This document shows positions 1 through 26,714 of a stretch of 26,714 bases of DNA, piece after piece; position 1 is the stretch's first letter, and the number at the start of each line of letters is the position of its first letter. The position numbers were made by a program, and so were the translations under genes. The stretch spans positions 1 to 26,714 of IMG/VR virus record IMGVR_UViG_3300021478_000277. One strand, 5' to 3'. The notes beneath the pieces were generated by a model. It searched no databases and was not told the DNA's origin. It was given only the letters and a program-made list of their open reading frames with translations. This DNA is from a virus.

Positions 1-245
1 CCGCCACGGGCGCCGCCACGGCCGCCGCCACGTACGACGCCACGGACGCCGCCACGCGCGACGCCACGGCCGCCGCCACGCGCGCCGCCACGGACGCCGC
101 CACGGCCGCCGCCACGGACGCCGCCACGCGCGACGCCACGTACGCCGCCACGCGCGCCGCCACGGACGCCGCCACGCGCGACGCCACGTACGCCGCCACG
201 TACGACGCCACGCGCGACGCCACGGACGCCGCCACGGCCGCCGAA
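1..245 (+). repeat. 12-bp coding tandem repeat, 19 full units plus degenerate ends
   Basis: From position 9 to 236 there are nineteen exact-length 12-bp units of the form NNC-GMC-GCC-ACG, read in frame as X1-X2-Ala-Thr. The GCC-ACG half is identical in every unit. Codon 1 is GAC, CGC, TAC, GCC or GGC (Asp, Arg, Tyr, Ala, Gly) and codon 2 is only GCC or GAC (Ala or Asp). Every difference between units changes the amino acid and none is silent. Units 10-12 and 14-16 are the same 36-bp block, 48 bp apart, which suggests expansion by slippage or unequal exchange. A degenerate unit at 237-248 leads into the DUF6745-type domain. The repeat is much richer in G+C than the surrounding genes. There are no unique spacers, so this is not a CRISPR array. 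Confidence 0.95.
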
Positions 246-962
246 AACAACTGGTTTGTGCTGAACGGGGACCTGGTTCGTCTAGCCGATGAACTTGGTG
301 TCGGCCGAGCTGGACTGCAATGCGCCTACAACGCTTCCAATTTCTGGCAGGGCGGAAATCAATGGTCTGGCTGGGACGCGTTTCTATCGTTCTTTCGGCA
401 CATCGTTAAACTCGATATCAACTACGCTGCGTATGAATCTTGGGAAACGCTATCGCTTCATTCCGGGCCGCGGGCAGTGCACTCGGATTTCTGCATCATC
501 AGCGACCATCCCGAAGTGCTTCTCGTAGACAGCCAGAATCGCCCGCACTGCGCGACAGGCCCGTTTTGCCGATGGCGCGATGGCAGCGAACTGTATTCCT
601 TTCACGGAACACGGATTCCTGCAAAGCTTATCAGGCATCCCGAACGGATTACCGCAAAAGAAATTCTCGCCGAGCAAAATGCTGAAGTGCGTCGAGTAAT
701 GGTGGAGCTGGTTGGAATGGAGCGCTTCCTTCACGAGGCCGGCGCCAGCGAAATTCATCGCCACGAAATGGGCGAGCTGTTTTCAATCGACTTGCCAGGA
801 GACCCGGAACGGGTGTTGCGTGCCGTGCGAGTGAAAGATCCGTCTACAGCTCGAATCTACTTCCTTCGTGTACCGCCAACGATCGAGCGGGCAGACGATG
901 CCGTAGCGTGGACTTTCGGCTTTGACACCGCAAAACAATATCGTCCAGTTGCGGAAACTTAG
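3..962 (+). CDS. DUF6745-type protein with N-terminal tetrapeptide repeat (5' partial)
   Basis: The reading frame is open from the left edge, so the gene is 5' partial; a GTG at 258 is probably internal because the repeat upstream is in the same frame without stops. The visible protein has a long X-X-Ala-Thr repeat (about residues 1-78) and then a globular domain of about 240 residues. The globular part matches my memory of the DUF6745 family: a WDAFLSFF segment, SLHSGPR, LLVDSQNRPHC, TGPFCRWRDGS, HPERIT, EQNAEVRRVM and a C-terminal YFLRVPP then AVAWTFG. The family has no established function that I know. Known members often carry short Trp/Asp/Ala/Val repeats N-terminally; here these are replaced by D/R/Y-A/D-A-T units. 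It is followed by a zinc-ribbon gene after 8 bases. The family call is recalled, not searched. Confidence 0.72.
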   Translation, partial: ATGAATAAATYDATDAATRDATAAATRAATDAATAAATDAATRDATYAATRAATDAATRDATYAATYDATRDATDAATAAENNWFVLNGDLVRLADELGVGRAGLQCAYNASNFWQGGNQWSGWDAFLSFFRHIVKLDINYAAYESWETLSLHSGPRAVHSDFCIISDHPEVLLVDSQNRPHCATGPFCRWRDGSELYSFHGTRIPAKLIRHPERITAKEILAEQNAEVRRVMVELVGMERFLHEAGASEIHRHEMGELFSIDLPGDPERVLRAVRVKDPSTARIYFLRVPPTIERADDAVAWTFGFDTAKQYRPVAET

Positions 963-7530: not shown

Positions 7531-7717
7531 CGTGCTCTGCTTTGCCTTCTGCTATCCCTTCCGCTTTGCCTTCAGCGCGCGAGGTCTTTGCGGTAAGCTT
7601 TAGAAACTCATCCATACGGGAATTGAATGTATCGTGTACCCGCTTGACGTGGAAATGGTTCAAAATTCCGAGCGCCAGCGTGCCAAAAACTCCTACTTCA
7701 GTCCAATTTATGGTCAT
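7520..7717 (-). CDS. Small protein with N-terminal hydrophobic segment (65 aa)
   Basis: The product begins MTINWTEVGVFGTLALGILN, a short hydrophobic segment that could anchor it in the inner membrane, and continues as a charged helix ending in a repeated AEGKAEG pattern. It is coupled to the upstream gene by an ATGA overlap at 7714-7717 and to the downstream coiled-coil gene by an 11-base overlap. No family is recognised. It could be one partner of a membrane pair with the coiled-coil protein. Confidence 0.55.
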   Translation of the reverse strand: MTINWTEVGVFGTLALGILNHFHVKRVHDTFNSRMDEFLKLTAKTSRAEGKAEGIAEGKAEHDGE

Positions 7718-19000: not shown

Positions 19001-19813
19001 TTACGGTTGCCCTCCAAGAAGATTAGCAACAGTATCACCTGGATTTGTACCCGCAGGGATGCCAGGGATCCCTCCAGTTGGACCAAGCATAGAAAGTTGC
19101 GCTAGGTTGCTAAGACCACCAATACCAGCATTGGCTACTCCGGCATAGCCGCTAGCCGTGGCCGCTCCTTGATTAAGCAGGCTGTTTCCAATCTGCTGGC
19201 CACTGCCTAGCAATGTGTTGCTGATATTATTGGCGGCTCCCTGGCCTTGCTGTCCAAGCTGGCCTGCCGCGGTTTGCCCAGCTCCAGCTACTGAAGCTAG
19301 CCTGTTGAACTGATTGGCTTGGTTCTGCTCAAAGATGTTGTAATTCTGCTGATACTGACCTAGTGCCCGGTTGTAGACGTTTGAATATTCGTTTGAAGCA
19401 TAATCCTGCCCGTATTGCTGGATGGCTTTGGCCGTACCCCCAGTAAGGAGGTTTCCGCTAGCCGCCGCGGAGTTTTGCAGAGCTTGATTGCCTTGCTGAA
19501 GCCTGAATTGATAGCCAGGATCATTTTGCTCAGTGGCCCCTGTAGGCGCTTGGAATTGCTGGTTCCATGGCTGGAAATTCTGCGCCAAATTTGATAGTTG
19601 GCCGACAGCACCTTGCCCAGCTTGGAGCCATGGCGCCATGTTCTTTTGCTGGGTATTCCATTGCTGCTCTTGGAATTGAAGAGCTTGCTGGGCATTTTGT
19701 GATTGGAGACTGGCGGCATTGCCAGCTGCTCCAGCTTGTGTACTGGCAGCAAATCCGGCACCAACAGCTCCAATAAGAGCTCCACCGCCTATCGCTATGG
19801 CAACAAATGACAT
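19001..19813 (-). CDS. DNA transfer/ejection protein, gp7-position (270 aa)
   Basis: The product begins MSFVAIAIGGGALIGAVGAG, a glycine-rich hydrophobic segment that can insert in membranes, followed by a Gln/Ala-rich helix (NAQQALQFQEQQWNTQQKNM) and WLQAGQGAVGQLSNL. The DPGYQFRLQQGNQALQNSAA motif and the QQYGQDYASNEYSNVYNRAL region with a regular Asn/Gln/Tyr pattern are typical of phage 'DNA transfer protein' homologues as I remember them. It would be packaged in the virion and ejected with the DNA. It overlaps the upstream cupin-like gene by 19 bases. Confidence 0.7.
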   Translation of the reverse strand: MSFVAIAIGGGALIGAVGAGFAASTQAGAAGNAASLQSQNAQQALQFQEQQWNTQQKNMAPWLQAGQGAVGQLSNLAQNFQPWNQQFQAPTGATEQNDPGYQFRLQQGNQALQNSAAASGNLLTGGTAKAIQQYGQDYASNEYSNVYNRALGQYQQNYNIFEQNQANQFNRLASVAGAGQTAAGQLGQQGQGAANNISNTLLGSGQQIGNSLLNQGAATASGYAGVANAGIGGLSNLAQLSMLGPTGGIPGIPAGTNPGDTVANLLGGQP

Positions 19814-20250
19814 TTGCTAGCCTCAAACTCTTCAAATGTATCCACTACCAAAAGCTCCTCAGCTTTATCAGGGTCAGTTTCTCTGCAAGAATGAACTGTA
19901 GTCCATACCGTCTCTTCATGGGCATAGCCTACCCGCTTGATCCCAGGCTTTGATATGATCGTTGCTGGAGCCACGATACGCTTAACGCCAGCCTCAGTAA
20001 GTACCGAAATATCTCCCTTAGAAATTATGTTGATGTGCTCGAAAAGATGAATCTTGCCAGTCAATAGCGTGCCTTTAGGGATGGTAATTTCCCTAGCATA
20101 CAGCCCATCCGCGAAGTAGTGCACTGGTTCAATGTGAATCTGTTCCTGCTTGCGCATCCCATCCTCTAGCTTTATGATCTTATCGCGCAAGACATCCTGA
20201 CCGCTTGTAATGGCGGTCGAATCAAACGGATCAATGAACCTTTCTTCCAT
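19795..20250 (-). CDS. Cupin-like phage protein (151 aa)
   Basis: The ATG at 20250 shares a base with the stop of the upstream gene (TAATG); a longer frame is rejected because its N-terminus lies antisense-like inside that gene. The product begins MEERFIDPFDSTAI, has a helix (DKIIKLEDGMRKQEQI) and then a beta-rich cupin-type stretch: HYFADGLYAREITIPKGTLL, GKIHLFEHINIISKGDISVL and VGYAHEETVWTTVHSC. Small cupin-fold proteins of this pattern (...GK.H...H..ILSKG...) occur between structural genes of several phages; their role is not established. His residues in KIHLFEH and YAHEE could hold a metal. Confidence 0.65.
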   Translation of the reverse strand: MEERFIDPFDSTAITSGQDVLRDKIIKLEDGMRKQEQIHIEPVHYFADGLYAREITIPKGTLLTGKIHLFEHINIISKGDISVLTEAGVKRIVAPATIISKPGIKRVGYAHEETVWTTVHSCRETDPDKAEELLVVDTFEEFEASKCHLLP

Positions 20251-20534
20251 TAAAATGAGTTCAGTGGTATACGTTTCCACTGGTTGACCCCCACAGCCAC
20301 ATATAGAAAGTTCTGATCGTAAAAGAATAGCTGACCTGGCAAGCCTTGCGAACTGGATGTATTCCCTGCTGGCCAAGTTGCGAATGGCGTCGAGAGCGTT
20401 GCGCTGATGTTCTGGAAGTACTTGATCCACGGAAACGAGAAGATCCACACAAGCCTAGCCATCGTTCCTGGCAGCTGAGTGCCTTGCTGAGGAAAGAATT
20501 GCGTGCGAATGGGCGGATCTTGGAACTTAGCCAT
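20250..20534 (-). CDS. Small phage hypothetical protein (94 aa)
   Basis: The ATG follows GGAG and directly follows the upstream stop. The product begins MAKFQDPPIRTQFFPQQGTQ and is rich in Phe, Trp and Pro, with WIKYFQNIS and a terminal strand-like LFFYDQNFLYVAVGVNQWKR. Similar short Trp/Phe-rich proteins are seen between tail genes of environmental podoviruses; no function is known to me. It is probably a tail or fibre accessory protein by position. Coupling to the cupin-like gene is by a one-base overlap. Confidence 0.55.
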   Translation of the reverse strand: MAKFQDPPIRTQFFPQQGTQLPGTMARLVWIFSFPWIKYFQNISATLSTPFATWPAGNTSSSQGLPGQLFFYDQNFLYVAVGVNQWKRIPLNSF

Positions 20535-20813
20535 TTAGCTCCATTCAATCTCCATTTCGCCTGGAGTTGCTCCGGCCGTCACGACTTGCAAGCCTTGCGT
20601 GAAGAATAGCGGTGTCAGCACGCCCAGATTGACCGTAATTGCCGCTGGCGTGGCGCCGTAGATGGTTGTCACGTTGCCGGCAGGATTCGGCCCATCATTC
20701 AGGGTCAATGTCCAGCTCGTGCCAGCCTGTGGAACGCTGATGGCCTGAATGTAGCCGGCAGAACTTAGCTTTAGGTTGAATGTACCGCTAGTCGTGATCT
20801 TGCTTATTGGCAT
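20535..20813 (-). CDS. Small beta-rich virion protein (92 aa)
   Basis: The product begins MPISKITTSGTFNLKLSSAG and alternates Thr/Val/Gly strands (TSWTLTLNDGPNPAGNVTTI; AAITVNLGVLTPLFFTQGLQVV), ending GEMEIEWS. The pattern is that of a small jelly-roll or beta-sandwich decoration or tail protein. No named family is recognised. It is one base from the stop of the downstream gene and one base from the upstream gp10-like gene's stop, fitting a single structural operon. Confidence 0.55.
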   Translation of the reverse strand: MPISKITTSGTFNLKLSSAGYIQAISVPQAGTSWTLTLNDGPNPAGNVTTIYGATPAAITVNLGVLTPLFFTQGLQVVTAGATPGEMEIEWS

Positions 20814-20814
20814 G

Positions 20815-22623
20815 TTATGCTCGCTTTCCTAGTTCCTTTACAAGCCGTTCTTGCGGCTGGAATCCTGGCGTCGCCATTAGGTAGGCATCCACAATCCGCC
20901 ACGGGATAGGGTCAGACACTGAAACTTCGTAAACTCTGTCCCTGGACCTTCCCATACGCCTCCAGATGGCACGCTTGGTGTATTCCCCAGTCTTTCCGCA
21001 GTCTACCATGTAAATATTCGACCAGGCATGCCCGCCATCGTTTGACCATCGCAGCATCGCTTGCGGACCTCGAGCTAGCGCCGTGAAGTTCTGCGAAGTG
21101 GTCAAAAGCCCCAGCGTCGTCACGCCCAAGTACCAAGCTGTAGTCCCTGTTATGCTGAACATCTGGATTTGCGTTGGGTTGGCGGCATTGAATGCTACCG
21201 AAGTCGTTGTAAGCAGTCCTAGCGTGGTAATGCCTAGCTGCCAAGAAACTGTGTTGCCTGGATTGTTCAGGATGATTGGCACAACTGCGCCCGTTGATCC
21301 TGGCGTGCTTTGCAGCAAGCCTGCATCTGTTACTGTCACTGACCACAAGACCAAACCTGAGTCCTGCAAGGTAACGACTGTCGGAGCTCCACTGCCGCCT
21401 TGCAATGGAGGCGATGGCCCTAGCCCTGTCTCAAAGTCTACTTGCAGCTGATGATGGAAGATCCATTCTTGCTCGCTAGCTATATGCGGTGCTCTGCGGA
21501 CCCGTCTAATCGGATTGCCAAAGTCTGAGAAAATGTTCGTGCTCATGTTATAGACAGCGCCTGTAGTGTAATCCCCGACAAGGTGCATGCCGAAGTTGTA
21601 GGTATGGAATCGCGCTCTATGCGCTGTAAAAAATCCTGCGTTGTTCCAGTAGCCACGCTGATGCCACATCCCGGTTGCTACGTCGTAGACCCAGGTGGCG
21701 CTGGCTGTCGGGAAGTGCAGCACGTAGTAACTATGCCCTGAGTCCTGATAGCAGTAGGCAATCGCGTCTGTAAGTGTGGTGTACTGGCTCCAGGCATACT
21801 CCACGGCATGATTAGAGACTCTTGTAGGGCTGTAGCCTTGCGCTCTCCAGACAATTCCTGCGCCTCGTTCGTCACCGCCAAGCCAAAACACCGAATTATC
21901 CAAGCGAGCCGAGGACAAAGCTGCTATTGCTCCTTGCTCGAGGAAGCCTCCAGGGACTGGCTGAATAGCGTTTAGCAGCGTTCCAGCATTGTAGAGCACA
22001 ATCGACTTGTTGCCACCCCATAGCCATAGTTCCCTGTGATCGGCTAGCGAAGACACCACATTATCGGCAAAAAGCGAGACTTGGCTGACATTGGCGAGGT
22101 TCCAAGTGGTTGAATCTTCGAGGTTTGACAGCTGAAAAGTGTTGGAATTGGCTACTACAGCGATAAAGAAGCCATCAATGAAGTGCACTGCCTGCCACGG
22201 CCCTGCCTGCATCGCTACTGGTACTTGCGTCAGCGTGTTGGTGGCTAGGTTGAAGCTATAGCCTAAGCCTCCGGAAGCTATCAGTATTTGCGAGTTGCCC
22301 GGCGCTCCGCCGACCGTCATTGACACTGGATTGCCGTCGTTAATGATTCCTGTGTAGGTGATTTTGGTGCCATTCGACAGCAATTCAAACAGGCTGGTGC
22401 CAGCCACGAAGAACGTGCGGCCGTTGAATGCAGGCAAAGTGCCTCTGACAGGGTCGTTGCCAAGCGTGTAAAGCAGGCTCAGCCCTGGTGTAGGATAGAG
22501 GTAAGATCCAGCCTTGCCACCGCCTGACTCGTTCGTTTCGACGAGCCAGTTCATCGTCAACTGAGCATCGGCATTGACGCTCTGCGACTGGTACGATGGA
22601 CCGCATAGGCCGAAACGAGCCAA
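20815..22623 (-). CDS. gp10-like tail hub / packaged-DNA stabilisation protein (602 aa)
   Basis: The product begins MARFGLCGPSYQSQSVNADA and then NWLVETNE, the conserved start of the P22 gp10-type tail accessory or stabilisation proteins, followed by a region of about 300 residues of WD-like beta-propeller strands (AFNGRTFFVAGTSLFEL; WQAVHFIDGFFIAV). It starts at a TTG (22623) right after the upstream stop, with GAGGAAG before it. Between about residues 430 and 515 there is an inserted repeat of W-x-L-G-x-T-T-L-G-L-L-T-T type. The C-terminus reads LRWSNDGGHAWSN and KRAIWRRMGRSRDRVYEVSV, as in related proteins. The product closes the portal channel and binds the tail fibre or needle in P22. 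Confidence 0.8.
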   Translation of the reverse strand: MARFGLCGPSYQSQSVNADAQLTMNWLVETNESGGGKAGSYLYPTPGLSLLYTLGNDPVRGTLPAFNGRTFFVAGTSLFELLSNGTKITYTGIINDGNPVSMTVGGAPGNSQILIASGGLGYSFNLATNTLTQVPVAMQAGPWQAVHFIDGFFIAVVANSNTFQLSNLEDSTTWNLANVSQVSLFADNVVSSLADHRELWLWGGNKSIVLYNAGTLLNAIQPVPGGFLEQGAIAALSSARLDNSVFWLGGDERGAGIVWRAQGYSPTRVSNHAVEYAWSQYTTLTDAIAYCYQDSGHSYYVLHFPTASATWVYDVATGMWHQRGYWNNAGFFTAHRARFHTYNFGMHLVGDYTTGAVYNMSTNIFSDFGNPIRRVRRAPHIASEQEWIFHHQLQVDFETGLGPSPPLQGGSGAPTVVTLQDSGLVLWSVTVTDAGLLQSTPGSTGAVVPIILNNPGNTVSWQLGITTLGLLTTTSVAFNAANPTQIQMFSITGTTAWYLGVTTLGLLTTSQNFTALARGPQAMLRWSNDGGHAWSNIYMVDCGKTGEYTKRAIWRRMGRSRDRVYEVSVSDPIPWRIVDAYLMATPGFQPQERLVKELGKRA

Positions 22624-22842
22624 TTACTTCCTCTTTCTGCGCCGTAGTTCTTCGTCATCCTGCCTGGCTGAAATCGGGTATGGATGATCCCAGCGAGCTT
22701 TCAGCACATGCCCGCCAAGCTCAGCTAGAACTTGCCCGGCAAGCTTCTCTTTGTGCCCGTCGTCCTTCTCTGGGCCGCTTTTGTCTTCGTTCTGCCGCCC
22801 AAAAGCTGGGTCTGTTGGTTGTTTCTTTACGTCGTATGCCAT
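22624..22842 (-). CDS. Small charged hypothetical protein (72 aa)
   Basis: The ATG at 22842 has AAGGAG six bases upstream. The product is highly charged and hydrophilic (MAYDVKKQPTDPAFG; KSGPEKDDGHKEK), with a short helix containing LAGQVLAELGGHVL, and a basic C-terminus (DEELRRRKRK). It lies between the gp10-like gene and the plus-strand HNH gene, only 14 bases from the latter's start. No family is recognised. Confidence 0.6.
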   Translation of the reverse strand: MAYDVKKQPTDPAFGRQNEDKSGPEKDDGHKEKLAGQVLAELGGHVLKARWDHPYPISARQDDEELRRRKRK

Positions 22843-22856
22843 GGTAAACTCCTTCT

Positions 22857-23279
22857 ATGGAAAATTGGCTTGCAGTTACCGGATACGAAGGTATTTACGA
22901 GGTCAGTGACCATGGGCGAGTTCGTAGAATCGCAACATGGAAAGATAATTGGGGAACGGTGCGAAAGCCAAAAGGCTTTATTGCGCCACAGAAAAAAGGA
23001 GCTAATTATGCCGGAATATCGCTTTCCAGGGATGGCAAAAAATATCAAACCTATGTCCACATCCTTGTCATGAAAGCGTTTTTTGGCGGAATACCAGAAG
23101 GTCTTGAGCCGAACCACAAAGACGGAAACAAGTTCAACAATCACATCGACAACCTTGAACTCATTACCCATTCCGATAATTGCCATCACGCCCATGCCAA
23201 CCTCCTTTCTGTGACTCGTAATTCAAATGGCACCTTCAAAAAGTTCAGCCGCCTACCGTCCCGCGGGGAGGTCAGTTAG
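22857..23279 (+). CDS. NUMOD4/HNH homing-type endonuclease inserted antisense in the structural operon
   Basis: The product begins MENWLAVTGYEGIYEVSDHG, the NUMOD4 DNA-binding motif, and continues with RVRRIATWK and a Gly/Lys-rich strand. The HNH core is VHILVMKAFFGG, then EPNHKDGNKFNNHIDNLEL (residues about 82-100), with His, Asp, Asn and the 'HKDGnk.NN...NLE' pattern of homing nucleases (I-HmuI type). It is the only plus-strand gene in the late block. The start has no ribosome site; the 14 bases before it are instead the ribosome site of the minus-strand neighbour. The last 27 bases overlap the end of the gp4-like gene. It is probably a free-standing mobile element. Confidence 0.85.
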   Translation: MENWLAVTGYEGIYEVSDHGRVRRIATWKDNWGTVRKPKGFIAPQKKGANYAGISLSRDGKKYQTYVHILVMKAFFGGIPEGLEPNHKDGNKFNNHIDNLELITHSDNCHHAHANLLSVTRNSNGTFKKFSRLPSRGEVS

Positions 23280-23981
23280 CCAGTTCCACACCCTTCCACG
23301 TGGATTCACTACAGCTGGATCTGCCTGCATCTGTGGATTTGGCGCATTCATTGCCTTTAGAATTGCTTTGGTCATCATCGCCTGTGCAATGACTTCTGGC
23401 GGGGCTTGACGCCCGAATTCAGGCGCAAGATCGACTGCAAGGCAATAACGAATCGCCTTGAGGTATGCCGGAGGGAACGTAATGTCAGTGACCAAATCGG
23501 GGAAAGTCGTGAGTGGTGTCCAGCTATACAGCCGCGTCTTGACCAGTACGCTGGGGATGCACCAGTAGTTGAGGTTTCTGAGCGGGTAGGCATTGTCATC
23601 GTAGATCTTCTGCGGCAGCGTTGAACTGATTAGCTTTACAGGGATAAGCGACTGCCATTCTTGGAAGTCGAGCACTTGCAAAGGAAGTTCGAGCGGCTGG
23701 GCTGGATTGTTGAGGTTGACAATGCTATAGCGCTCGATGCGGGCTGGCCGCGGAATGTTGAAGTTGCCGCCAGTTCCGCAGGTATAGACTTGCTGGCCGG
23801 GAACAAGCGGGAATTCACTTAGCAGGATTGCAAAGACATTAAGCCGTTCAGCTTGCCAGGTATCCAGCATTTGCTGGAGGATGACAAGCCCATCGGCTGC
23901 TTCCATGCCCGAAGGAGTTTCGCCACTTGCCAAAACACCGATGAGCCGGAGAGCGCTTGCTATTATGTCCCCACCGGTGAT
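23253..23981 (-). CDS. gp4-like head-to-tail adaptor protein, putative ATC start (242 aa)
   Basis: The product includes GDIIASALRLIGVLASGETP near the start, then MEAADGLVILQQMLDTWQAE and LNVFAI, the N-terminal helices of the P22 gp4-like tail accessory factor family, and Trp/Pro-rich strands and a C-terminal helix (PPEVIAQAMMTKAILKAMN). No ATG, GTG or TTG precedes the conserved segment: the first is TTG at 23933, which would remove it. AGGAGG at 23992-23987 is followed after five bases by an ATC at 23981, with the stop of the upstream gene just before. I therefore place the start there. Gp4 binds the portal in P22 and prepares it for gp10 and the needle. Confidence 0.75.
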   Translation of the reverse strand: MTGGDIIASALRLIGVLASGETPSGMEAADGLVILQQMLDTWQAERLNVFAILLSEFPLVPGQQVYTCGTGGNFNIPRPARIERYSIVNLNNPAQPLELPLQVLDFQEWQSLIPVKLISSTLPQKIYDDNAYPLRNLNYWCIPSVLVKTRLYSWTPLTTFPDLVTDITFPPAYLKAIRYCLAVDLAPEFGRQAPPEVIAQAMMTKAILKAMNAPNPQMQADPAVVNPRGRVWNWLTDLPAGR

Positions 23982-23990
23982 GGCGCCCTC

Positions 23991-24257
23991 CTAGTTTATT
24001 GCCGCTTCTGGGATCGTTGACCAGCCCTTTTCAAGCAAAGCAGCTTCGTCGTCGGCGTCTTCCGCCCAGCAAGTCACGTAGGGATGGCGGTCCTTGACGC
24101 GTTGCGCTTGGCCTGCTTCCGAGACAATGATTCGCGGATAAGCTGGAGATATTTCTTCTCCCTGTCCCTTGGCCGCTTTCTTGTACAGCGCTTTAGGATA
24201 GTTTGGATCGCGGACTTCAAGCTGTGTGGGCTTCTGCTTTGGCTGCGGGATTGGCAT
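23991..24257 (-). CDS. Small hypothetical protein in the structural operon (88 aa)
   Basis: The product begins MPIPQPKQKPTQLEVRDPNYPKAL split by Pro/Lys-rich residues, then AYPRIIVSEAGQAQRVKDRH and CWAEDADDEAALLEKGWSTI. It is probably a small alpha-beta protein; no family is recognised. The ATG shares a base with the upstream stop (TAATG), and the stop is within the ribosome site region of the gp4-like gene. It may be a head or tail-joining accessory protein, but only position suggests that. Confidence 0.55.
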   Translation of the reverse strand: MPIPQPKQKPTQLEVRDPNYPKALYKKAAKGQGEEISPAYPRIIVSEAGQAQRVKDRHPYVTCWAEDADDEAALLEKGWSTIPEAAIN

Positions 24258-24508
24258 TATTCAGCATCCTTGTTGCCGCCAAACGCGTCAGGCTCGACAC
24301 GCTTACCATGCGGCTGGCCGCGACCTGCCTTCGGAACTGGATTGAATGAATTGGGGTAAGGATGCTCGTCACGGTGCGTTTCGCGGTGCGCATCCGGCAG
24401 CTTCCCAACCTTCGTCAATCCTACTTCGCCTTGCTGGTTCATGATGTGATCGTTCAAATGCTCAGGAAGCATGACTTTCTGGCCGTGCGGATGTGGATTG
24501 TGTCCCAT
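24257..24508 (-). CDS. Small hypothetical His-rich protein (83 aa)
   Basis: The ATG follows AAGGAGAA. The product begins MGHNPHPHGQKVMLPEHLND and is rich in His, Pro, Gly, Lys and Asp throughout, with little predicted regular structure. Several His-x-His patterns (PHPHG; DAHRETHRDEH) could bind metal, but this may simply reflect composition. No family is recognised. It is packed between the 172-residue structural gene and the 88-residue gene. Confidence 0.55.
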   Translation of the reverse strand: MGHNPHPHGQKVMLPEHLNDHIMNQQGEVGLTKVGKLPDAHRETHRDEHPYPNSFNPVPKAGRGQPHGKRVEPDAFGGNKDAE

Positions 24509-24517
24509 TTCTTCTCC

Positions 24518-25036
24518 TTAAGTCGTTGTCTCTACCGTGTAGAACACAGTGATATGGGCAGTGCCGCTGCCCGCAGCAAAGTTGTTGGTAGCCTTGGAAA
24601 TGGTGAATGCAGCATTCTCGTTCGTCGGAGGTGCAGCCGCTGTCGAAGTCCCTCCAAAAGCAAAGATTTGCTGCGATCGCTGGCCGGCAGTAGGCCCGGT
24701 AAAGACAGTATTGGCCGCCAAAGTCGCTGTCATGGAGCCAATTGAAAAAGTGACTGCCCCGCCAACGTCTGTATAGGCTGCCGTAACCCCTGAAACGCGA
24801 ATAAAGATCGTCTCAGGGCAAATCATTAGGCCAGGACCAGGAGCCGGAACAAGCGTTACCGGAACTGTCAGCAAAGCAAGGATTTGCGCCGAAGTAAGCA
24901 GAGTGTCTGTCCGGTAATCCATCTGGAAGGCATTCTGCAACGATTGAATGACTTCGCCTGCCAGAAATGCGCCTGATTTGCTGCTTGCCAGAGTTCCAGG
25001 CGTTGCCGCAAAAGGTAGAATTGCTGGTGTCGCCAT
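24518..25036 (-). CDS. Virion-associated beta-rich protein (172 aa)
   Basis: The ATG follows GAAGGAGAG. The product has a helical N-terminal part (LASSKSGAFLAGEVIQSLQN; YRTDTLLTSAQILALL) and a beta C-terminal part with Thr/Ala-rich strands (AVTFSIGSMTATLAANTVFT; AHITVFYTVETTT). No named family is recognised. It lies between the coat gene and the gp4-like gene, where decoration or head-completion proteins are common. A GC-rich hairpin lies just upstream of its ribosome site. Confidence 0.55.
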   Translation of the reverse strand: MATPAILPFAATPGTLASSKSGAFLAGEVIQSLQNAFQMDYRTDTLLTSAQILALLTVPVTLVPAPGPGLMICPETIFIRVSGVTAAYTDVGGAVTFSIGSMTATLAANTVFTGPTAGQRSQQIFAFGGTSTAAAPPTNENAAFTISKATNNFAAGSGTAHITVFYTVETTT

Positions 25037-25052
25037 ATCTCTCCTTCAAATT

Positions 25053-25074
25053 GGGGCGGAGTCCCCGCCGCCCC
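25053..25074 (-). terminator. GC-rich hairpin between two structural genes
   Basis: GGGGCGG at 25053-25059 and CCGCCCC at 25068-25074 form a perfect 7-bp stem with an 8-base loop. Read in the minus direction it is followed by AATTT and then by the ribosome site of the 172-residue gene. The U tract is short, so it may act as a partial terminator or an mRNA stabiliser that separates highly expressed genes upstream from those downstream. Confidence 0.4.
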
Positions 25075-25087
25075 GCGGGCTGAGATT

Positions 25088-25732
25088 TTATGCCTTACGA
25101 GATGGATACCAGAGCTGCGATGTCAAACTGCCGTCCAGAACAAAGTCAATGAACGTTCCGGCCGTCAAAGCAGCTACTGTTCCAGCAATCGCAATGCCTG
25201 TTCCACCGCCACCCGTCGCCCATGCCGCCGTACCATCCGTGATGATGGTGATACGAGTGCCGTTGACGTAGTTTTCCTCTGTGCTTGAGCCGGTGTAGCT
25301 CAGCAAGGCAGAAGTTGGCGGCTGCATGTTGGTGATGCTGGCAGAGCCGCTGACGTGGAAGAAGCCGCTGGGGCATACGATGCTGGCGGCAGAAGCTACG
25401 ACTGGGCCAGGCATCATAAAGCCAACTTCTGGCTGGACGATGCTGAATGCCTGGATGGCAGGCTTGAAGCCCAGAAAGTCAGCTGGCAGCCCTGATACGA
25501 TCGGAGCCAAAGCGTTGTGGCTCATCGCCCTGGTTCCGCCTACGCCGCGCTGCACTGTCACCACGACGCCGCTTACCGCTGTGACCAGCATCAATTCCTG
25601 GTCGCAGAGAATGTAGGTAATGCCTGCTCCAGTGTTGAATACTGGCGAGGTAATACCCGTAGCGGACGTTACGCTGAATACGGTCTGGTTGGGAGTCGTT
25701 GCGCCAACGATGGTTGTGTAGTTTAGGCTCAT
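25088..25732 (-). CDS. Structural protein next to the coat gene (214 aa)
   Basis: The ATG at 25732 overlaps the coat gene stop (ATGA); an earlier in-frame GTG/TTG-type start is not needed. The product begins MSLNYTTIVGATTPNQTVFS and is rich in short beta strands (YILCDQELMLVTAVSGVVVT VQ; GTRITIITDGTAAW). The motif MLVTAVSG...VQRGVGGT resembles small phage capsid or decoration proteins. No named family is assigned. A head decoration or stabilisation role is inferred from position just downstream of coat. Confidence 0.6.
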   Translation of the reverse strand: MSLNYTTIVGATTPNQTVFSVTSATGITSPVFNTGAGITYILCDQELMLVTAVSGVVVTVQRGVGGTRAMSHNALAPIVSGLPADFLGFKPAIQAFSIVQPEVGFMMPGPVVASAASIVCPSGFFHVSGSASITNMQPPTSALLSYTGSSTEENYVNGTRITIITDGTAAWATGGGGTGIAIAGTVAALTAGTFIDFVLDGSLTSQLWYPSRKA

Positions 25733-26714
25733 GATGCCACCCTGCAAGCAAGCTCGGGATAGAGCGTTGTCCAGCCGTACAGAACGTCAGTACGAGTCGG
25801 GAAACGATCTGTATTAATGTCATAGGCGCGAACGAGGCGAATGGAGATGCCTAGCTGCTTGTCAGCAACGCGAGCCGCCATGTCAACCCCACCCGGCAGC
25901 GGAAGATCCGCAGAACCAAGCGCAAAAGCATCCTTGTGGAATGCCAGTGCTTGAGGGCTTGATACGTTAGCTGCTGAAAGGCCGCCCAGCAAGTTGATAC
26001 TGACGCCGTTGCCTGGAGCTGCGGTAACGTTTTGGAACGGTCCGCTGGTAACGATTGCCGGCGATATCGTGAAGGTCATTGCACCGCCGCCTGTAGCTGT
26101 CGCGTTGGCTGTCACTACGAACTGCCGTAGCGCGCCAGTCGAAGCCTTGGACTGCGTATTGACCGCATATACGCCAGTTGCGCCAGAACCGAAAGTAATG
26201 ACATTCCCTGCCAGCAGCGTTGAAGTCGTTACCGTCCAGTTGCCTGATACGATAGATGTTGCTGTCGAGCCTGCCAGCGTGTAGGTAGGCTGCAAAATGC
26301 CATAGTTGCCCATGACATTGATGCCTACGTTCTGGTCCATTGACCACTTCATGCCAATCGACCGCCCCATTGTGCCTTCTTCGTACTGCCGGGCAATCTC
26401 GCTGGACTCTTGAAAGAGGCCTTTGAGAGTGTCAATGATAGTCGCCTGCATGGCTGGTGAAATGACCAAGCTGCGCAGATTGTCACGTGGCGCTGCTTCC
26501 TCATCGAGTCGCTGGCCAGCTTGCAAGTAGGTCAGAAGCGCGTTGGGAACCGTGCCAGGCGTGCCAATCACGTTGTTTACGTTCAGGTACTGTTGCATGC
26601 CGTCGTAGTCGATGTGGTTTGCAATGTTGGCAATCGCTGGACGAATGAAACGGTCGCTGAAGTCGTCAATGGATAGTGCGAGGTCTTGCGAGGTAAATGC
26701 AATGTCTACGCCTT
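25729..26714 (-). CDS. P22-type major coat protein (5' partial at right edge)
   Basis: The frame is open to the right edge, so the N-terminus is missing. The visible 327 residues contain the pattern of P22 coat (gp5, HK97 fold) proteins: LALSIDDFSDRFIRPAIANI, NVIGTPGTVP, AGQRLDEEAAPRDN, RSLVISPAMQATIIDTLKGL, IARQYEEGTMGRSIG and KWSMDQNV. An Ala/Thr-rich insertion-domain-like region follows, and the C-terminus has ISIRLVRAYDINTDRFPTRT with DVLYGW, also typical. A GGC-TAC-GAC segment before MQQYLN is part of the conserved sequence, so the ATG at 26598 is internal. It forms the capsid lattice. Confidence 0.88.
   Translation of the reverse strand, partial: GVDIAFTSQDLALSIDDFSDRFIRPAIANIANHIDYDGMQQYLNVNNVIGTPGTVPNALLTYLQAGQRLDEEAAPRDNLRSLVISPAMQATIIDTLKGLFQESSEIARQYEEGTMGRSIGMKWSMDQNVGINVMGNYGILQPTYTLAGSTATSIVSGNWTVTTSTLLAGNVITFGSGATGVYAVNTQSKASTGALRQFVVTANATATGGGAMTFTISPAIVTSGPFQNVTAAPGNGVSINLLGGLSAANVSSPQALAFHKDAFALGSADLPLPGGVDMAARVADKQLGISIRLVRAYDINTDRFPTRTDVLYGWTTLYPELACRVAS

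Follow-up and report, generated by a model that had tools for sequence, protein, structure and literature searches.

We analysed a whole IMG/VR virus record of 26,714 bp (this whole stretch is called the window here), a fragment of a P22-like, short-tailed phage with genes for a P22-type coat protein, head closure protein Hc3, DNA ejection and a short tail fibre. The window opens with a tandem array that is joined in frame to the C-terminal part of a DUF6745 protein. The contig edge cuts this open reading frame (ORF) on its 5' side, so that the array is cut short and the N-terminal domain lost. The features are as follows.

3..962, + strand: ORF with the array joined in frame to the DUF6745 C-terminal part; 5' end open at the contig edge, stop codon at 960-962
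3..242, + strand: tandem array of 20 complete 12-bp units GCC-ACG-NNC-GMC, from TRF and in-frame reading; truncated at its 5' end
107..152, + strand: first copy of a 46-bp exact block repeat, including the 36-bp block 111-146
155..200, + strand: second copy of the 46-bp block repeat, including the 36-bp block 159-194
243..446, + strand: stretch linking the array and the Pfam match, with the phage-type motif QGGNQWSGW..FLSFFRH..KLDI that is common to relatives (alignment A1)
447..959, + strand: DUF6745 domain, profile positions 34-206 of 206 (Pfam PF20530, E = 7.2e-35; a six-frame search agrees)
1225-2023: HNH endonuclease and DUF559 protein, downstream of the DUF6745 ORF
19001-26712, - strand: P22-type structural genes (coat, Hc3, DNA ejection, short tail fibre)

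TRF places the array at 1-243, with a score of 297 for period 12 and 332 for period 24. The original prediction, made from the letters of the window, had counted nineteen 12-bp units; the repeat is real, but reading in frame gives 20 complete units, and the first codon after them is GAA, from 243. The peptide unit is Ala-Thr-[Arg/Asp/Ala/Tyr/Gly]-[Ala/Asp]. GCC-ACG is kept in all 20 units, codon 3 is CGC (6), GAC (5), GCC (4), TAC (4) or GGC (1), and codon 4 is GCC (14) or GAC (6), so that the predicted pattern of a constant GCC-ACG with two varying codons and no silent change holds throughout. Codon usage does not account for the array, since codons are mixed further downstream: GC3 falls from 1.00 within the array to 0.56 over the remainder of the ORF, and the probability of drawing the array's exact codons from the downstream usage of the same gene has a log10 of about -40. 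Two identical 36-bp blocks had also been described; they are present with starts 48 bp apart, and their exact match reaches 46 bp, a block repeat that within the window alone is compatible with chance (P = 0.26 against shuffled unit order). At 7536-7573 the window has another short tandem repeat, with 3.2 copies of TCTGCTTTGCCT.

The assignment of the C-terminal part to DUF6745 proved correct: the Pfam match covers residues 149-319 of the ORF with 120.6 bits, against a gathering score of 27 bits. The repeat-containing ORFs from a DNA-pattern scan of viral contigs (below) have this layout too, an N-terminal domain followed by the array and then a DUF6745-type C-terminal part, to the extent that each contig covers it. 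Among solved structures, the DUF6745 protein has no significant match by sequence or fold; a match to an antifreeze protein (E 4.6) merely reflects Ala/Thr helix resemblance. BFVD yields few significant matches: two named DUF6745 proteins, of which one belongs to Microcystis phage LMM01, plus two fragments of phage origin that are uncharacterised. Matches of the array to phrog_8332, phrog_342 (PHROG) and NF033849 (NCBIfam) were disregarded as likely composition matches.

Directly upstream of DUF6745, a small gene with RQGDVL...GEATGHxH...HEEH...RQREY...VAD motifs is present in 39 of the 67 loci, phage and cellular, that have enough upstream sequence (a few are second copies of the same contig). 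Examples are the ORF at 4247-4579 of L003 and its counterparts in L004, L005, L007, L065 and L079. The protein has no Pfam match, and its sole match is the unnamed PHROG phrog_27831; the gene is a likely functional partner of the DUF6745 protein. Some of the phages carry exonuclease and single-stranded DNA (ssDNA)-annealing genes in the same region, which hints at a possible source of short-homology recombination. A PADLOC search for known defence genes gave no meaningful matches, and two weak ones on L068 were disregarded.

Arrays in relatives and their predicted structure

A scan of viral contigs for the DNA pattern returned 47 stretches. Because such a scan is biased to the pattern, we also sought relatives with the DUF6745 part alone; the locus search used the smaller A2 and A3, the 33-row profile being too diverse. 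These repeat-independent searches gave 89 distinct phage records, window included, and 81 of them (about 90%) carry a tandem array in the same slot. The period is four residues in 79 of the 81 array-bearing viral records and three residues in the other two, and complete arrays have 7-95 units with a median of 34. The remaining eight records have no array by the scoring used, with L140 and L177 among them showing a few units; the array is thus dispensable in some phages. At L011, L013, L112, L114 and L118, a three-residue array (ARDALDA type) replaces the four-residue one.

The commonest motif is ATxx, and the same slot also holds QATx, SQVx, SAVx, SAAx, xDSV, xDSL, xDQL and xGAV. Read from the main variable residue onward, these motifs follow x-[A/D/S/G]-[A/S/Q]-[T/V/L], where x is mostly R, D, Y, W, E, G or S. 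The alphabets are restricted, with R, D, Y and S at the third residue (x3), A and D at the fourth (x4), and Lys and Pro almost absent. Arrays are also found in isolate records (Mycobacterium prophage prophiGD102-1 and Nocardia farcinica NCTC 11134), and the complete phage record MW202476 has SSLx units. The Actinoplanes-type chromosomal members lack an array of this kind. Some Verrucomicrobia and Planctomycetes members show, by eye, apparent leucine-rich repeats before the last 123 DUF6745 positions; the cellular DUF6745 C-terminal part stands behind such LRR-like repeats in L097, L099, L100, L101, L102, L104, L106, L108 and L111, and Pfam LRR was not called in the three cellular members of this kind that were scanned.

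AlphaFold2 on the relative L004 (31-row alignment) shows a confident N-terminal helical domain and a C-terminal domain with one long connecting helix, residues 90-183, for which pLDDT is low (~44-70) in most of the array. The V-type member L068 is modelled with shorter helices that are also partly of low confidence. Opposite charges at x3 of neighbouring units are commoner than in shuffled arrays (z = -6.6 at i/i+4), as expected of i/i+4 salt bridges if the array is helical. Together, the model and the charge alternation make the helix plausible in the predicted regular surface pattern "on a helix or solenoid", and the array is probably an alpha-helical rod.

Array differences between near-identical phages

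Comparison of near-identical phages shows how the array changes. L122 and L123 have no mismatch over 12,006 columns, and a single 24-bp gap between them corresponds to two array units. L121 and L123 differ at 5 of 6,935 bases, four of which lie in the 216-bp array and are all non-silent. Between L152 and L172 there are 34 array differences, none silent, against one in 6,498 bp outside, while 9 of 10 unit types are common to both. L135 and L136 have all seven unit types in common in a different order, with 38 array differences, and L179 has at least 7 units against about one in the near-identical L182. In several near-identical pairs the array is the most variable place found, and reshuffling among a few unit types is the best reading of the pattern. 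Not every pair shows such turnover: overlapping array segments are identical in three pairs (L164/L165, L176/L178 and L257/L260), and the two mismatches between L224 and L226 are both outside the array. Two further patches were seen in these alignments, a second hypervariable one outside the array at 9797-10063 of L135 (against L136), and clustered mismatches at 5088-5557 of L179 in its long, otherwise near-identical alignment with L182.

Arrays are difficult to assemble from short-read metagenomes, the source of most near-identical pairs, so single unit orders may be wrong. Caution on unit order in single metagenome contigs is warranted because, of the 81 viral records with an array, 40 stop within the array ORF. 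The array stands at both ends of records of 36,319 and 39,364 bp, as circular or circularly permuted genomes would show if their assembly failed at this place alone. None of the pairs includes the window phage, for which homology with these relatives points to the same turnover.

Both the rearrangement of a coding repeat and the length-variable module of the original prediction are borne out by these pairs, through differences in unit number and unit order, among them the two-unit gap without a single SNP in 12 kb. A unit length that is a multiple of three and a unit-number polymorphism between close relatives (L122/L123) are the marks of a coding VNTR or minisatellite. The prediction had also allowed for phase variation, which fails in the on/off sense: twelve-base units preserve the frame, so the variation is one of length and sequence, and one array only, in L161, is frameshifted. 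In L161, from ~5720 (the same contig as L208), the frameshift lies in the array and leaves the N-terminal part and DUF6745 in different frames; it is either a broken allele or an assembly error.

Silent change and competing explanations

We counted silent and non-silent steps on minimum spanning trees of the unit types of 80 arrays, including the near-identical L121-L123. There are 674 non-silent and 65 silent steps, against ~215 silent steps expected if change were neutral, an expectation that has no separate GC3 term and in which unit types are not equal to independent mutations. For AT arrays we obtained a dN/dS-like ratio of ~1 at Ala and Thr, which change little at all, of 1.5 at residue 4 and of 3.6 at residue 3, where 23 silent steps are seen and 68 expected. 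Variable letters number 1493, 1847 and 330 at codon positions 1, 2 and 3.

Silent codon choice is nearly uniform inside arrays and different between arrays. The Ala-Thr pair is GCC-ACG in 23 arrays, GCG-ACC in 13 and GCC-ACC in 9, with GCT-ACA, GCA-ACG and others elsewhere; in L002 and L004, whose domain is ~80-88% identical to that of the window, every unit has other Ala/Thr codons. Since silent codons are near-uniform within and different between arrays, each lineage seems to have undergone wholesale replacement of its units, with the variable residues staying diverse. Block repeats are also in excess over 55 arrays, with 333 three-unit words seen against 117 expected and 49 five-unit words against 3.7. 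The original prediction took the exclusively non-silent variation as a sign of recent slippage or of rearrangement driven by gene conversion. The rearrangement part of this stands, but slippage alone is insufficient, because the ratio of 3.6 at residue 3 goes with a silent background that is near-fixed within arrays and differs between them; protein-level selection is also needed. In our best model, the pattern would reflect homogenisation of units together with such selection. Homologues with a fixed unit number and normal synonymous variation were looked for among the relatives and not found.

Our preferred reading, to which we give a probability of about 0.6, is that the array is a recombining in-frame coding minisatellite whose product, within a phage accessory protein of two domains, is a rod that varies and is probably alpha-helical. 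The likeliest of the alternatives, although unlikely in our judgement, is neutral slippage in a permissive spacer, in which the variable residues are irrelevant and silent changes are few owing to young arrays and codon bias. A loosely specified linker would fit the range from 7 to 95 units, the array-free relatives and the different motifs accepted by one slot. However, silent steps at residue 3 are well below the neutral number, the alphabets at x3 and x4 are restricted, charges alternate at i/i+4, and GC3 reaches 1.00 in the window array although it is 0.56 in the rest of the gene.

A more novel and, in our judgement, improbable reading is a code-like recognition rod. Every tetrapeptide would supply a periodic binding surface with one or two variable residues, and phages would rewrite that surface through in-frame reshuffling of units, so as to track or evade a partner that itself varies. 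Such a rod would be a minimal four-residue counterpart of modular repeat proteins, with ATxx, SQVx, DSVx and DQLx as interchangeable chemistries for one slot of the protein.

That short-read collapse, expansion or chimerism creates the repeat variation is improbable, even though so many records end inside the array ORF and some contigs have the array at both ends. Complete arrays are internal to long contigs (L003-L005) and occur in the two isolate records, so the collapse or expansion that had been named as a possible refutation does not explain the repeat; collapse would also not yield new unit types or in-register changes, and the pair differences are all non-silent. The array itself is no assembly artefact.

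We consider targeted hypermutation of the variable codons, for example by a diversity-generating retroelement (DGR), very improbable. These codons are often NNC with a fixed third base, like DGR target codons, but the adenine of ACG is constant, and near-identical phages mostly reuse common unit types, with few new ones. A DGR is also unlikely because no reverse transcriptase (RVT_1) was found in 23 records, a set of possibly incomplete records that includes two named phage genomes and lies apart from the window's own record. There is equally little room for a repeat that acts as DNA (binding sites, a packaging or recombination signal) with incidental coding: the 12-bp period is regular and present in most relatives, but variation tracks codon positions, relatives (V/L types too) preserve the amino-acid pattern on differing DNA motifs, and, apart from one that is frameshifted, the arrays found without the DNA pattern share the frame of the DUF6745 part that follows them.

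A proposed mechanism and known systems

In the coding minisatellite that we favour, a rod of Ala-Thr-x-x tetrapeptides would sit between the N-terminal helical domain and the C-terminal DUF6745 domain. New in-frame arrangements and homogenised silent sites might arise as units recombine or slip, perhaps aided by the phages' own exonuclease and ssDNA-annealing proteins, and selection would retain the Ala-Thr frame and the mixed charged and aromatic alphabet. The result would be a rod able to change rapidly in both length and surface pattern, and its likeliest use might be to tune or diversify how the protein interacts with a partner that varies.

Coding VNTRs and modular repeat proteins are already known. 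In the limited open-access literature, preprints excluded, we found no description of DUF6745 or of phage tetrapeptide or hypervariable coding repeats, nor of what appears new here, a four-residue combinatorial array that turns over between near-identical phages and has interchangeable chemistries in one family. The array often breaks assemblies while being the most variable place found in several near-identical pairs. It is a clear example from nature of concerted evolution in which selection can be seen at single codons, silent sites being uniform and chosen residues diversified, and it provides a candidate helical rod of four-residue units that is tunable in length and sequence. It also leads to a testable hypothesis, that phages can achieve fast in-frame diversification needing neither a DGR nor phase switching.

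Several known systems resemble the array in part. TALE repeats are helical units of 33-35 residues that bind DNA, one base each. Like them, the array has near-identical units that vary at two adjacent residues (here residues 3 and 4, with Ala-Thr constant) and are reshuffled as units; in contrast, its units have four residues. Single alpha-helix (SAH) domains are stable lone helices rich in E, K and R and held by i/i+4 salt bridges. A long lone helix is predicted here too, at low confidence, and opposite charges are favoured at i/i+4, whereas the array is Ala/Thr-based with period 4 and almost free of Lys. With DGR targets the array shares a hypervariable segment of a phage protein with fixed third codon bases, but its variation consists of reshuffled tandem units, and the 23 records contain no reverse transcriptase.

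The nearest functional precedent is NeuO, the polysialate O-acetyltransferase of prophage CUS-3, also a phage-encoded protein with a variable-number coding tandem repeat. In NeuO, slippage changes the repeat number of the poly-psi segment, which scales catalytic efficiency, so that the segment tunes activity without being required for it (PMC3046976). The 7-bp units of NeuO switch the frame on and off, whereas the 12-bp units here keep it, and the identical RLKTQDS heptads of NeuO are N-terminal, whereas the array described here is internal and combinatorially varied.
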